64,000 bases of DNA, taken from Mycobacterium sp. 3519A (GTDB taxonomy: Bacteria; Actinomycetota; Actinomycetes; Mycobacteriales; Mycobacteriaceae). Shown in pieces: positions 19,361 to 21,366 of this stretch. The notes beneath the pieces are model-generated. The model was not told where the DNA came from and did not search any database. It saw only the letters and a list, made by a program, of their open reading frames with translations. Positions within the stretch are counted from its first letter, which is position 1; each line of letters begins with the position of its first letter. The stretch covers positions 34,778 through 98,777 of the forward strand of contig NZ_OESG01000011.1 in NCBI RefSeq assembly GCF_900240945.1, given 5' to 3'. The translations under genes and the position numbers were made by a program.

Positions 19361-20938
19361 ATGAGCGAGCCTGTACAGACGCCCTCCGGCCTGCCTCTCG
19401 AGCCGGTCTACGGTCCGGCCGACCGGGCCTCCGATCCGCCTGCGCCCGGCACCTATCCATTCACCCGCGGAAACTTCGCGACCGGGTACCGCGGTAAGAC
19501 GTGGACGTTTCGCCAGTACTCGGGTTTCGGCACCGCCGAGGAATCCAACCGCCGCTATCGCTATCTGCTGGACCAGGGCGGCACCGGCCTCTCGGTGGCC
19601 CTCGATCTGCCGACCCAGTGCGGGTACGATTCCGACGACCCCGAGTACGGGGAGGAAGTCGGCCGGGTCGGCGTTGCGGTCGACACGCTCGCCGACGCCG
19701 AGATCCTGTTCGACGGCATCCCGTTGGAGGCGATCAGCACCAGCTTCACGATCAACGGCACGGCCGCGATCCTGCTGGCCTTGTATGTGGCCGCCGCGGA
19801 GAAGAAGGGCGTGCCGCGGGAGAAGCTCACCGGCACCATCCAGAACGACATCCTCAAGGAGTACGCCTCGCGCGGCACCTGGATCTGGCCGCCGGAGCCG
19901 TCGCTACGGCTGATCGCCGACACCATCGAATTCTGTGCGGCCGAGGTGCCGAAGTTCAACGCGATCTCGGTCGCAGGCGCGCATTTTCGCGACGCCGGTG
20001 CCAACGCGGTCCAGGAGATGGCGTTCACGCTTGCCGACGGTGTCACGTACTGCGACACCGTGGTCGAGCGCGGCAGGATGACCATCGACCAGTTCGCCCC
20101 GCAGATCTCGTTCTTCTTCTACACGCATGGCGACTTCTTCGAGGAGATCGCCAAATACCGGGCAGGCCGTCGGCGGTGGGCGACCATCGTCCGCGAGCGC
20201 TACGGTGCGACGACGGACAAGGCGTCGATGTTCCGGTTCGGCTGCGTGGCGGGCGGTGCGTCGCTGTATGCGCCGCAGGCCCAGAACAATCTGGTGCGGG
20301 TGGCGTACGAGGCGATGGCAGCGGTGCTCGGCGGCGTGCAATCGATGTTCACCGCGGCGTGGGACGAACCGTTCGCTTTGCCCAGCGAGGAGTCGGCGAC
20401 GCTCGCGTTGCGCACGCAGCAGATCCTGGCCTACGAGACCGGGGTGACGAAAGTGGCTGACCCGCTGGGCGGTTCGTACTTCGTCGAGGCGCTGACCGAC
20501 GCCACCGAGGAGAAGATCATCGAGATCATGGGTGATCTCGAAGCCCACGGCGGCATGGTGCGCGCCATCGAGGACGGCTATCTACAGGGCCTGATCGCGG
20601 ACGAGGCGTTCAAGATCCACCAGGAGGTCGAGTCGGGTAAGCGCCCGGTCGTCGGTGTGAACAAGTTCGTCTCCGACGAGCCGCCACCCGAGATCGCCAC
20701 CTATGAACTGGATGCCGAGGGCCGCGACCTTCAGCTCAAGCGGCTGACCAAGGTCAAGGCCGAGCGGGATTCCGATGCGGTGGCGGCCAGTCTTGCGGCG
20801 CTGTCGCGCGCGGCGGAAGGCGACGACAACCTGATGCACAAGCTGATCGACTGTGCGAATGCGTATTGCACTGTGGGGGAGATGGTTTCCACCCTCAAAG
20901 CGGTGTGGGGCGAGTTTCAGCAACCGGTGGTGTTCTGA
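19361..20938 (+). CDS. Coenzyme B12-dependent acyl-CoA mutase, large subunit (divergent)
   Basis: This 525-residue protein aligns throughout with the substrate-binding subunit of isobutyryl-CoA and 2-hydroxyisobutyryl-CoA mutases: TWTFRQYSGFGTAEESN, GTGLSVALDLPTQCGYDSD, TIQNDILKEY (about 158-167), PEPSLRLIAD, DPLGGSYFVEALT, VGVNKFV. It should rearrange the carbon skeleton of an acyl-CoA by a radical mechanism with the small subunit carrying cobalamin. The active-site region is unusual. The normally near-invariant R[TF]H[ST]QT[SA]G is RFGCVAGG (292-299), SLHTN is SMFTA (328-332), and GYH is GAH near residue 208. Substrate specificity is therefore probably new. The ATG at 19361 is the first plausible start; upstream frame is shadow. 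The small subunit overlaps by 3 bp. Confidence 0.9.
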   Translation: MSEPVQTPSGLPLEPVYGPADRASDPPAPGTYPFTRGNFATGYRGKTWTFRQYSGFGTAEESNRRYRYLLDQGGTGLSVALDLPTQCGYDSDDPEYGEEVGRVGVAVDTLADAEILFDGIPLEAISTSFTINGTAAILLALYVAAAEKKGVPREKLTGTIQNDILKEYASRGTWIWPPEPSLRLIADTIEFCAAEVPKFNAISVAGAHFRDAGANAVQEMAFTLADGVTYCDTVVERGRMTIDQFAPQISFFFYTHGDFFEEIAKYRAGRRRWATIVRERYGATTDKASMFRFGCVAGGASLYAPQAQNNLVRVAYEAMAAVLGGVQSMFTAAWDEPFALPSEESATLALRTQQILAYETGVTKVADPLGGSYFVEALTDATEEKIIEIMGDLEAHGGMVRAIEDGYLQGLIADEAFKIHQEVESGKRPVVGVNKFVSDEPPPEIATYELDAEGRDLQLKRLTKVKAERDSDAVAASLAALSRAAEGDDNLMHKLIDCANAYCTVGEMVSTLKAVWGEFQQPVVF

Positions 20939-21366
20939 TGGCAGAATCCGCTCCCGCCCAAGCCCGCCCGGCGCGCGTGCTGGTCGCCAAGCCGGGCCTC
21001 GACGGTCACGACCGCGGGGCCAAGATCGTCGCCCGCACACTGCGCGATGCGGGGTTCGAAGTGATCTACACCGGTATCCGGCAACGTATCGAGGACATCG
21101 TCTCCATCGCGCTGCAGGAAGACGTTGCGCTGGTGGGTCTTTCGATCCTGTCCGGTGCGCACGTGGCGCTGACGACGCGTACCGTCGAGGCATTGCGGGC
21201 GGCCGACGCGGGGGACATCGCCGTCGTGGTGGGCGGCACGATCCCGCAGGGGGACGTCCAGAAACTGTTGGACGCCGGTGCGGCGGCGGTGTTCCCGACC
21301 GGCACACCGCTGGACACGCTGGTCGCAGAGGTGCGCAAGCTGACCGCGGAGAGGGTGGCTGAATAA
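20938..21366 (+). CDS. Acyl-CoA mutase small subunit (cobalamin-binding)
   Basis: This 142-residue B12-binding domain protein has the base-off/His-on signature D22-x-H24-x-x-G27 (LDGHDRGAK), followed by the S-x-L motif in LVGLSILSG and the GG motif in VVVGGTIPQGD. The conserved histidine replaces the lower axial ligand of cobalamin. With the large subunit it forms a two-chain mutase like IcmA/IcmB or HcmA/HcmB. The ATG overlaps the stop of the large subunit (TGATG), a strong sign of stoichiometric co-translation. Confidence 0.93.
   Translation: MAESAPAQARPARVLVAKPGLDGHDRGAKIVARTLRDAGFEVIYTGIRQRIEDIVSIALQEDVALVGLSILSGAHVALTTRTVEALRAADAGDIAVVVGGTIPQGDVQKLLDAGAAAVFPTGTPLDTLVAEVRKLTAERVAE

Follow-up and report, generated by a model that had tools for sequence, protein, structure and literature searches.

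A distinct clade of adenosylcobalamin-dependent acyl-CoA mutases in mycobacteria, with altered active-site motifs and a retained catalytic set

Introduction

The mutL and mutS genes of Mycobacterium sp. 3519A, found in a 64,000-nucleotide stretch of its genome (hereafter the window), encode the two subunits of a predicted AdoCbl-dependent acyl-CoA mutase, which belongs to a separate clade with a fixed combination of altered residues around an intact catalytic set. Our preferred reading, to which we give roughly an even chance (about 0.48), is that this is an active mutase of a distinct subclade, which by analogy with IaaGH would act on a bulky substituted succinyl-CoA/malonyl-CoA pair. The clade, its residues, its gene neighbourhood and its pattern of regulation were observed, and from them we infer the activity, the residue roles, the direction and the class of substrate. 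Few specificities of acyl-CoA mutases have been characterised and a handful of residues tell them apart; a clade that joins a new residue combination to an intact catalytic set therefore offers a clean test of which residues govern substrate size and the positioning of the adenosyl group. The features are collected in Table 1.

Table 1. Features of the mutase locus (positions in the window; fractions are loci with the feature, among those with enough DNA from the best 80 of 415 relatives unless marked otherwise).
Feature	Position	Strand	Basis
AMP-forming acyl-CoA ligase	16860..18353	-	Domain search; 60/76 loci
SDR oxidoreductase, divergent from mutL	18350..19171	-	Domain search; 64/77 loci
36-nt conserved mutL upstream element, distal copy	19212..19247	+	Sequence comparison
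36-nt conserved mutL upstream element, proximal copy	19321..19356	+	Contains TTGGCA-17-TACGTT
MutL, large substrate-binding subunit, 525 aa	19361..20938	+	TIGR00641, PF01642, 4r3u matches
Y53 codon (MCM Tyr89), kept	19517..19519	+	Alignment to 1req_A
R171 codon (MCM Arg207), kept	19871..19873	+	Alignment to 1req_A
A207-H208 codons (Tyr243 to Ala; His244 kept)	19979..19984	+	Alignment to 1req_A
RFGCVAGG codons, 292-299 (His328 to Gly, Gln330 to Val; RxHxQTxG elsewhere)	20234..20257	+	Translation and alignment
SMFTA codons, 328-332 (SLHTN in most others; Asn366 to Ala)	20342..20356	+	Translation and alignment
MutS, cobalamin-binding small subunit, 142 aa	20938..21366	+	TIGR00640 and sequence
LLM-class oxidoreductase, predicted F420-dependent	21368..22324	+	TIGR03564 (named after MSMEG_4879), 359 bits, cut-off 234
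Class III CoA-transferase	22329..23399	+	PF02515
2Fe-2S ferredoxin	23396..23701	-	PF00111; 69/76 loci
Palindrome GAGAATNNNATTCTC, between ferredoxin and ligase	23738..23752		Sequence search
AMP-forming acyl-CoA ligase	23808..25205	+	Domain search; 69/76 loci
Two acyl-CoA dehydrogenases (25190-26002, 25989-27077)	25190..27077	+	65/76 and 64/75 loci
Crotonase-fold enzyme	27110..27877	+	PF00378; 61/72 loci
Palindrome GAGAATNNNATTCTC, before thiolase	30359..30373		22/24 loci, at most 1 mismatch (own sample)
Thiolase	30392..31531	+	PF00108/PF02803
MeaB-type GTPase, putative chaperone for MutL/MutS	31536..32417	+	PF03308; TIGR00750, 244.6 bits, cut-off 240.75

Two Subunits of a Predicted Acyl-CoA Mutase

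MutL matches TIGR00641 with 661 bits (cut-off 303.8) and the MM_CoA_mutase large domain PF01642 with 659 bits, and its best match among solved structures is HcmA (4r3u, E 1e-152). MutS, whose start codon overlaps the mutL stop codon in TGATG (20936-20940), matches TIGR00640 with 145 bits (cut-off 57.45) and, as a small-subunit domain within the mutL operon, carries the intact cobalamin motif K18-x3-D22-x-H24-xx-G27. These matches bear out an earlier note on this DNA, which had described a retained fold and a D-x-H-x-x-G motif in the small subunit. By domain and cobalamin motif, the pair falls in the superfamily of AdoCbl-dependent acyl-CoA mutases, and AdoCbl-dependent isomerase activity is predicted. 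The score of MutL against the MCM equivalog NF006944 is 573 bits, below the cut-off of 876, as is that of the large MCM subunit encoded in the Ilyobacter operon (686); split enzymes score low because this model covers both domains.

Residues Changed and Residues Kept

In translation, MutL reads GAH at residues 206-208, RFGCVAGG at 292-299, and SMFTA at 328-332. In a phmmer alignment to the MCM of P. shermanii (1req_A), Ala207, Gly294, Val296, and Ala332 take the places of Tyr243, His328, Gln330, and Asn366, and Tyr53, Gln161, Arg171, His208, and Glu336 correspond to the unchanged Tyr89, Gln197, Arg207, His244, and Glu370. The altered motifs noticed earlier, including the Ala before the catalytic His, are thus confirmed. 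The five residues that the Catalytic Site Atlas lists for 1REQ (PMC3205055) are also all retained in MutL. With these five and Gln197, Arg207, and Glu370 in place, to speak of a "rewritten active site" was too strong.

The combination of Ala (243), Gly (328), Val (330), and Phe (364) occurs in 124 of 175 aligned rows, some of which are one gene represented twice, and Ala at 243 is found in none of the remaining 51, so the pattern is not one of chance. Only Tyr243 to Ala and Gln330 to Val are confined to the clade among the aligned rows; five ECM-like rows (RYGVQVN / QLP) also show His328 to Gly and the loss of Asn366, so these two changes are not unique to it. Across 28 other mutases, 83 columns reach at least 90% conservation, and all 14 clade rows depart from four of them (F81L, Y207A, E211D, and Q296V); the matching counts for the ICM-like, HCM, PCM, and ECM-like groups, 0, 11, 25, and 24, are a rough control only, because the 28 rows were hand-picked and HCM and PCM are represented by two rows each. 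Constraint on the clade is strong: across 22 orthologues, residue 297 is the sole variable position among those discussed here.

We take positions 243, 328, 330, and 366 to line the active site. Over the listed changed sites, the summed side-chain volume drops by about 270 cubic angstroms (by a table of side-chain volumes), although His364 to Phe adds bulk. An AlphaFold2 model built from 22 close orthologues has a mean pLDDT of 46, so the estimate of cavity size is one of residue volumes only.

The loss of several family-typical residues would also be expected of a catalytically dead paralogue with a structural or regulatory role, like the MutA subunit of MCM. We consider this very improbable: MutL keeps the catalytic-atlas residues and MutS its cobalt-binding His, conservation is strong, and the protein comes with an upstream element, a MeaB, and a small subunit of its own.

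The Tyr89/Arg207 pair is present in 14 of 14 clade rows and 20 of 28 others, and is absent from eight ICM-like, HCM, and PCM rows. Because the F/Q pair itself served to label the ICM-like rows (the ECM-like ones were labelled by length and then by a neighbouring carboxylase/reductase), independent contrasts come solely from HCM, PCM, and L161, a fused row of IcmF length. The pair bears on a branched monocarboxylic acyl-CoA as substrate, in line with the set of branched acyl-CoAs that the earlier note suggested for assay. PCM rows have Gln at Tyr243, showing that this position can vary with a monoacid substrate; the pair, however, is missing from the two HCM rows, the two PCM rows, 4r3u, and the IcmF-length row, and the CoA-transferase that partners the mutase comes closest to dicarboxylate transferases, albeit below their cut-offs. 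Branched monoacids are thus the less likely substrates, and indeed improbable ones; a panel of branched acyl-CoAs would point the wrong way, as Tyr89/Arg207 is kept just as in MCM and ECM-like rows. It should be mentioned that the retained set, the catalytic-atlas residues together with this pair, had been left out of the earlier description.

A Clade Outside the Reference Groups

Within the genus Mycobacterium, taken broadly, 115 of 148 genomes encode an orthologue of MutL (86-100% identical), and a single genome has two copies; this occurrence in many genomes rules out a sequence artefact. Proteobacterial plasmid enzymes that are 55-59% identical carry the same changes (40 plasmid relatives were listed; one further plasmid record, of 60-80% identity, lies outside these), and a scan of viral contigs for diverse relatives gave one locus, which was aligned. 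In other words, the clade is not a degenerate oddity, being widespread in the genus and sharing its changes with distant enzymes.

The mycobacterial and proteobacterial sequences form a single clade (support 100/98-99), which branches among the enzymes with the MCM-type Y/R pair and lies inside none of the reference groups compared with it (ICM-like, HCM, PCM, ECM-like, and MCM-like subgroups). Union of nine actinobacterial rows with the ICM-like group is rejected (p-AU 5e-6), as is union with HCM (p-AU 0.0013). The identity of an ethylmalonyl-CoA mutase is likewise not supported, by the clade (p-AU 0.002 for union of the same nine rows with the ECM-like group), by the residues, and by the own genome, which has no crotonyl-CoA carboxylase/reductase above cut-off. 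Among the rows examined, MutL thus lies within no characterised mutase clade, and the same substitutions are found in no enzyme of known classical substrate. Because the substitutions are fixed and shared and the protein stands outside the reference groups, a new substrate is likely; because the catalytic residues are kept, new chemistry is not indicated. The earlier suggestion of a new substrate or reaction therefore survives in its first half.

The substitutions could instead tune the cofactor, because His328, Gln330, and Asn366 may presumably face the adenosyl group and the corrin rather than the substrate. The enzyme would then act on an ordinary small dicarboxylyl-CoA (methylmalonyl, ethylmalonyl, or dimethylmalonyl) while positioning the cofactor or protecting the radical differently, which agrees with Tyr89, Arg207, Gln197, and His244 being exactly as in MCM, and with the changes shared by the ECM-like group, which may be sister to the clade as a whole (support 88/82, on a long branch). 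On the other hand, the own genome already has MutA/MutB (MutB is L001), with a second MeaB-like gene adjoining MutB on C13, as well as lacking the carboxylase/reductase, and Tyr243 to Ala is absent from every row outside the clade; we regard this alternative as unlikely.

At the level of titles and abstracts, our literature search found no description of the clade, and nothing about this mutase among the papers listed on MSMEG_4878-4881. A study by Jost et al. from 2015 is said to treat the determinants of acyl-CoA mutase specificity and may already predict this subgroup. Four proteobacterial records annotate the enzyme merely as a methylmalonyl-CoA mutase family protein.

Gene Neighbourhood and Upstream Elements

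The actinobacterial loci compared were chosen by similarity of MutL, as the best 80 of 415 relatives, so that conservation of MutL among them is biased upward. Where enough DNA was present, an LLM-class gene of at least 55% identity lies within 13 kb of mutL at 77 of 77 of these loci, and a CoA-transferase of the window type lies near mutL at 76 of 76. The nearest NCBIfam models of this transferase, all far below cut-off, are the succinate-glutarate, oxalate, and mesaconate CoA-transferases. It recurs in three of four further orthologue-bearing stretches (L173, L175, and L176); within 20 kb in L174, no transferase of this type was seen, and the sole CoA-transferase there, at a distance of about 7 kb from the mutase, is 30% identical. 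The neighbouring CoA-transferases of proteobacteria are 51-58% identical to that of the window, and all four annotated proteobacterial clusters have one, together with TRAP or tripartite-tricarboxylate transporter genes. Neighbours differ by phylum, with the LLM enzyme in actinobacteria and, by annotation, a crotonase rather than an acyl-CoA dehydrogenase as the gene that immediately precedes the mutase in the four clusters of proteobacteria. Given these differences and the L174 exception, a single common substrate or partner is not certain.

Adjoining these genes is a catabolic island for ring compounds with Rieske oxygenases, a P450, and acyl-CoA dehydrogenases; the second acyl-CoA dehydrogenase of Table 1 has PimC as its nearest model, below cut-off. 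In one member of the clade, G083, a crotonyl-CoA carboxylase/reductase does score above cut-off, at a great distance from the mutase.

The core motif of the 36-nt element lies within 250 nt upstream of mutL at all 80 of the orthologous loci compared above, and a whole-genome scan allowing up to 3 mismatches finds the element at its two sites only. The TTGGCA-17-TACGTT of the proximal copy is a putative promoter of a nearly leaderless message. Upstream of the ligase, the palindrome GAGAATNNNATTCTC recurs within 350 nt, with at most 1 mismatch, at 69 of 69 loci.

A Possible Route for Bulky Dicarboxylic Acids

In the mechanism we propose, MutS would carry the cobalamin with His24 on the cobalt, and MeaB would load it. 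The starting compound, a dicarboxylic acid carrying a bulky group R, would become a CoA ester through a ligase and/or the class III CoA-transferase, the CoA being transferred intermolecularly from succinyl-CoA or intramolecularly, as reported for IaaL. The free carboxylate would be bound by Tyr53/Arg171 and the thioester by Gln161/His208, on the assumption that these roles carry over from MCM. The adenosyl radical would then start a 1,2 shift of the CoA-thioester group, interconverting R-substituted succinyl-CoA and (R-methyl)malonyl-CoA, and the cavity left by Tyr243 to Ala, His328 to Gly, Asn366 to Ala, and Phe to Leu may accommodate R, which would be an aryl, a cycloalkyl, or a branched alkyl group. 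The resulting ester of the malonyl type might then be decarboxylated or dehydrogenated and enter beta-oxidation.

We favour a bulky diacid because the catalytic set and Tyr89/Arg207 are kept, side-chain volume is lost, and a CoA-transferase is near; further reasons are the IaaGH/IaaL precedent for a large substrate, the adjoining island, and the missing carboxylase/reductase. More tentatively, the clade may be a previously unrecognised B12 mutase subfamily, encoded by roughly three quarters of the mycobacterial genomes sampled, which converts bulky succinyl-CoA to malonyl-CoA in aerobic breakdown of ring compounds with an adenosyl pocket devoid of His328, Gln330, and Asn366. If the bulky-diacid reading is true, it would add a hitherto unknown B12-dependent reaction to mycobacterial catabolism; the distribution across the genus suggests a B12-dependent step that is perhaps not yet accounted for in mycobacterial metabolism.

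Comparison with Known Mutases

The MCMs (1req, human, M. tuberculosis, and the own MutB) have the catalytic residues and the Tyr89/Arg207 pair in common with the clade and differ in Y243/H328/Q330/N366, which are A/G/V/A in MutL. HcmAB (4r3u) likewise consists of separate large and small subunits, but HCM, including 4r3u, has I/Q in place of the Y/R pair, keeps all four residues that the clade changes, and forms a separate clade. PCM has an L/N pair with Gln at 243 (Xanthobacter gene), and ICM-like enzymes have F/Q, so that MutL matches neither by these residues. The names of the plasmid genes are ones we assume: HCM for the Methylibium and Xanthobacter genes in L120 and L169, and PCM for the Xanthobacter one. 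ECM-like proteins (L149-L153) share the Y/R pair and two of the changes with the clade, but keep Tyr243 and Gln330 and alter 24 other conserved columns; four of the five have a crotonyl-CoA carboxylase/reductase within 25 kb, and they are probably fused to the cobalamin domain, because their open frames are longer (666-859 aa).

The sleeping-beauty mutase operon of E. coli, scpA-argK-scpB-scpC, brings together a mutase, MeaB, a crotonase, and a CoA-transferase. Its gene set resembles the proteobacterial clusters, although the transferase class and the substrate differ.

In our reading of the sequences, the clade would be a new subclade of a known kind of enzyme. MutL might instead belong to the family of IaaGH or of MatB/ActD, catalysing a known reaction with substitutions merely never tabulated. 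As described, all are B12 mutases for large substituted succinyl- or malonyl-CoA esters, and MatB/ActD, a hexylmalonyl-CoA mutase, has a crotonyl-CoA-type carboxylase/reductase as its proposed partner. A partner of that type is absent above cut-off from the own genome, and the crotonase before the proteobacterial mutases also speaks against such membership, which we think unlikely. IaaGH, as described in PMC8360864, is a B12-dependent phenylsuccinyl-CoA/benzylmalonyl-CoA mutase with the CoA-transferase IaaL in the same pathway. By this description, MutL/MutS would share with it the proposed reaction type and the CoA-transferase partner; a difference is that IaaGH belongs to the anaerobic indoleacetate pathway.

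Changed and Retained Residues

The earlier note had claimed three residue changes in MutL, the large subunit of the AdoCbl-dependent acyl-CoA mutase, and translation and alignment with the methylmalonyl-CoA mutase (MCM) of P. shermanii bear out all three, at the residues named. The MCM numbering used here was taken from that alignment, with Tyr89 and His244 as anchors, and both are listed among the 1REQ catalytic-atlas residues (PMC3205055). On this scale, MutL has Ala for Tyr243, Gly for His328, Val for Gln330, Phe for His364, and Ala for Asn366, as well as Phe to Leu at residue 81 and Glu to Asp at residue 211 in MutL numbering, and the side-chain volume summed over the listed changed sites falls by about 270 cubic angstroms. 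MutL keeps Tyr89, Gln197, Arg207, His244, and Glu370, and the cobalamin-binding subunit MutS keeps Lys604, Asp608, and His610, which were assigned by motif spacing. We take Tyr243, His328, Gln330, and Asn366 to be pocket residues of the mutase.

Ala at the Tyr243 position accompanies the other changes in 124 of 175 aligned rows (some rows being one gene twice) and occurs in none of the remaining 51. When 14 rows of the clade with these changes were compared with 28 chosen outside rows, 83 columns were conserved in at least 90% of the outside rows, and four of them (MutL residues 81, 207, 211, and 296) were altered in all 14 clade rows; three further positions raised by the earlier note, 328, 364, and 366 in MCM numbering, are 71–82% conserved outside. 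Counted in this way, the isobutyryl-CoA mutase (ICM)-like group has 0 such sites, the 2-hydroxyisobutyryl- (HCM) group 11, the pivalyl- (PCM) group 25, and the ethylmalonyl-CoA mutase (ECM)-like group 24, each with few rows. With so few conserved columns altered, the clade reads as an otherwise ordinary mutase, in which Tyr243, His328, Gln330, and Asn366 make up much of what differs.

Phylogeny and Distribution

In a 39-row tree, 12 actinobacterial and five proteobacterial rows form this single clade (100/99), and an odd variant, L167, is nearest to it (90/94). A 32-row rebuild, which left out L167, a fused IcmF-length row, the genome's own MutB, and some near-copies, retained the clade (100/98), and the nearest group was now the ECM-like one (88/82, on a long branch). 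The ECM-like label was assigned from row length and from a crotonyl-CoA carboxylase/reductase gene within 25 kb in four of five cases; the own genome has no such gene over the cut-off, and one clade member (G083) has it far from its mutase. In both trees, the clade lies among enzymes with the Tyr89/Arg207 pair (84/84 and 94/92), where the MCM-like rows are not one group, and it is therefore best called a subclade derived from MCM-like stock. Forcing the nine actinobacterial rows together with the ECM-like, HCM, or ICM-like rows, away from the proteobacterial ones, was rejected (p-AU 0.002, 0.001, and 5e-6); what these tests address is whether the rows belong within one of those groups, and not the order of the deeper branches. 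L167 (also L177) comes from a distant member of the phylum and has RFFSGCS for RxHxQTx and IHVM for LHTN; a class III CoA-transferase gene directly adjoins its MutL, and a gene for an LLM-class oxidoreductase (LLM) lies nearby.

Of 148 genomes in the genus, own genome counted, 115 carry the mutase, at 86–100% identity (E <= 1e-250). One genome of the genus, G530, carries two copies (C1:5628633 and C1:5266326). A phylum-wide sample of 396 genomes contained 17 with a copy at least 84% identical (14 of the same genus, one of the same family, two elsewhere in the class); the next among the matches listed reach at most 54% identity, and their readable loci have the classical residues, L167 excepted. 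Seven plasmid records, four from Paraburkholderia and one each from Diaphorobacter, Marinobacter, and Sulfitobacter, hold mutases 69–100% identical to the Diaphorobacter form, the next among those listed having only 48%; the same seven are at 55–57% in the P0001 plasmid search. Five of the seven were aligned (four at 55–59%, plus L171), and they have the same substitutions as the window MutL, with the variants RFGVVCGG and FTC.

Genomic Setting and Gene Neighborhood

The window covers 34778–98777 of contig C11 in a genome of 7.3 Mb, and its MutL has its closest named matches in Mycobacterium and Mycolicibacterium. After a one-base gap, mutS is followed by the LLM gene and then by a class III CoA-transferase gene. 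Because three further family genes lie elsewhere in this genome, namely MutB and MutA, adjacent on C13 with a MeaB-like gene adjoining, and an ICM-like large subunit (F/Q at the Tyr89/Arg207 pair) with its own cobalamin subunit on C12, the window pair is an additional mutase and not the housekeeping one. The window also has a neighboring catabolic block of FAD_binding_2 flavoproteins, an FAD_binding_3 monooxygenase, a LigB-type dioxygenase, a second LLM enzyme, a cyclase-family protein, and a protein with two CoA-transferase III stretches.

Neighbors were counted around the best 80 of 415 relatives by MutL similarity if they lay within 13 kb and were at least 55% identical, each gene being scored in those loci whose sequence extends far enough. 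MutL is accompanied by MutS in 77/77 loci, LLM in 77/77, and the CoA-transferase in 76/76; a ferredoxin and an AMP-forming acyl-CoA ligase are present in 69/76 each, two acyl-CoA dehydrogenases in 65/76 and 64/75, and a crotonase in 61/72. Three of four further genome stretches with an orthologue (L173, L175, and L176) have MutS, LLM, and the CoA-transferase; in the fourth, L174 (G437:C10:140001-160000), MutS and LLM follow, the window-type CoA-transferase is absent from its 20 kb, and the only CoA-transferase is 30% identical and about 7 kb off. In a Mycolicibacter strain (L081), mutL is immediately preceded on its own strand by two MlaE-family permease genes, a hint that this strain imports a hydrophobic substrate.

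All four annotated proteobacterial clusters have the order crotonase, MutL, MutS, CoA-transferase, GTPase gene, with TRAP or tripartite-tricarboxylate transporter genes within the same stretch; the GTPase gene is annotated “hypothetical” in two of them, yet can be aligned with MeaB. Their crotonases keep the first hydratase glutamate (E114) and have Gln at the second (Q134), and may possibly be decarboxylases or other non-hydratases. The window crotonase-fold protein, aligned with them, has Ser and His at the two positions. If hydration by crotonases needs both glutamates, neither type would be an ordinary hydratase.

Locations of the features discussed
Feature	Location	Remark
MutL	window 19361-20938	overlaps MutS at TGATG
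MutS	window 20938-21366	overlaps MutL at TGATG
36-nt element (GTATTGGCATTCTCATTTTnnGCAAGT...)	window 19212-19247, 19321-19356	two direct copies before mutL
Palindrome GAGAATNNNATTCTC	window 23738, 30359, 39093	
Crotonase-fold protein	window 27110-27877	
Catabolic block	window 36604-58783	
Proteobacterial crotonase	L116:8671-9441	Gln at second glutamate
Proteobacterial crotonase	L115:14113-14913	Gln at second glutamate
Proteobacterial crotonase	L117:14150-14923	Gln at second glutamate
Proteobacterial crotonase	L118:14096-14872	Gln at second glutamate
MlaE-family permease genes	L081 8253-9917	
Odd variant MutL	L177 10372-8798	minus strand

Upstream Elements and a Probable Catabolic Island

The core motif of the nearer 36-nt copy begins 36 nt ahead of the mutL start codon. 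This motif occurs within 250 nt upstream of mutL at all 80 orthologous loci, with at least two copies in 60, against a background of 0.005 per 250 nt in the remaining sequence of these loci; a 24-nt pattern with up to three mismatches finds only two sites in the genome, both before mutL. The palindrome GAGAATNNNATTCTC instead precedes the ligase and a thiolase, itself 5' of MeaB: at up to one mismatch, it is found before the ligase at 69/69 loci, the thiolase at 22/24, mutL at 1/80, and LLM at 0/79. Eight of its nine exact sites genome-wide fall inside 175 kb of C11 (C11:58515-232909). At one site, C11:106667, the palindrome separates a TetR-type gene from an acyl-CoA dehydrogenase gene; the TetR gene is a candidate regulator of a catabolic island. 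Ten proteins chosen near five palindrome sites include two Rieske oxygenases, one P450, and four amidohydrolases; the mutase therefore most likely stands at the margin of a regulated island of catabolic genes, with cyclic compounds as likely substrates.

Predicted Function and Comparison with Known Mutases

The kept catalytic residues, together with strong conservation, argue that MutL/MutS would be active. The retention of Tyr89/Arg207, a pair that the HCM, PCM, and ICM-like rows have lost, and the CoA-transferase partner argue for a predicted dicarboxylic substrate, and the vacated pocket for a bulky substituent on it; alternatively, the residue changes may serve the adenosyl side of the pocket instead of the substrate. 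With a bulky dicarboxylic substrate as the prediction, the nearest described chemistry to the window mutase, likened by description, is that of two systems: IaaGH, which has the transferase IaaL as its partner and interconverts (2-aminophenyl)succinyl-CoA and (2-aminobenzyl)malonyl-CoA (PMC8360864), and MatB/ActD, the proposed hexylmalonyl-CoA mutases (PMC5719088). If IaaG has the same residues, the window mutase would be a new member of an already known type.
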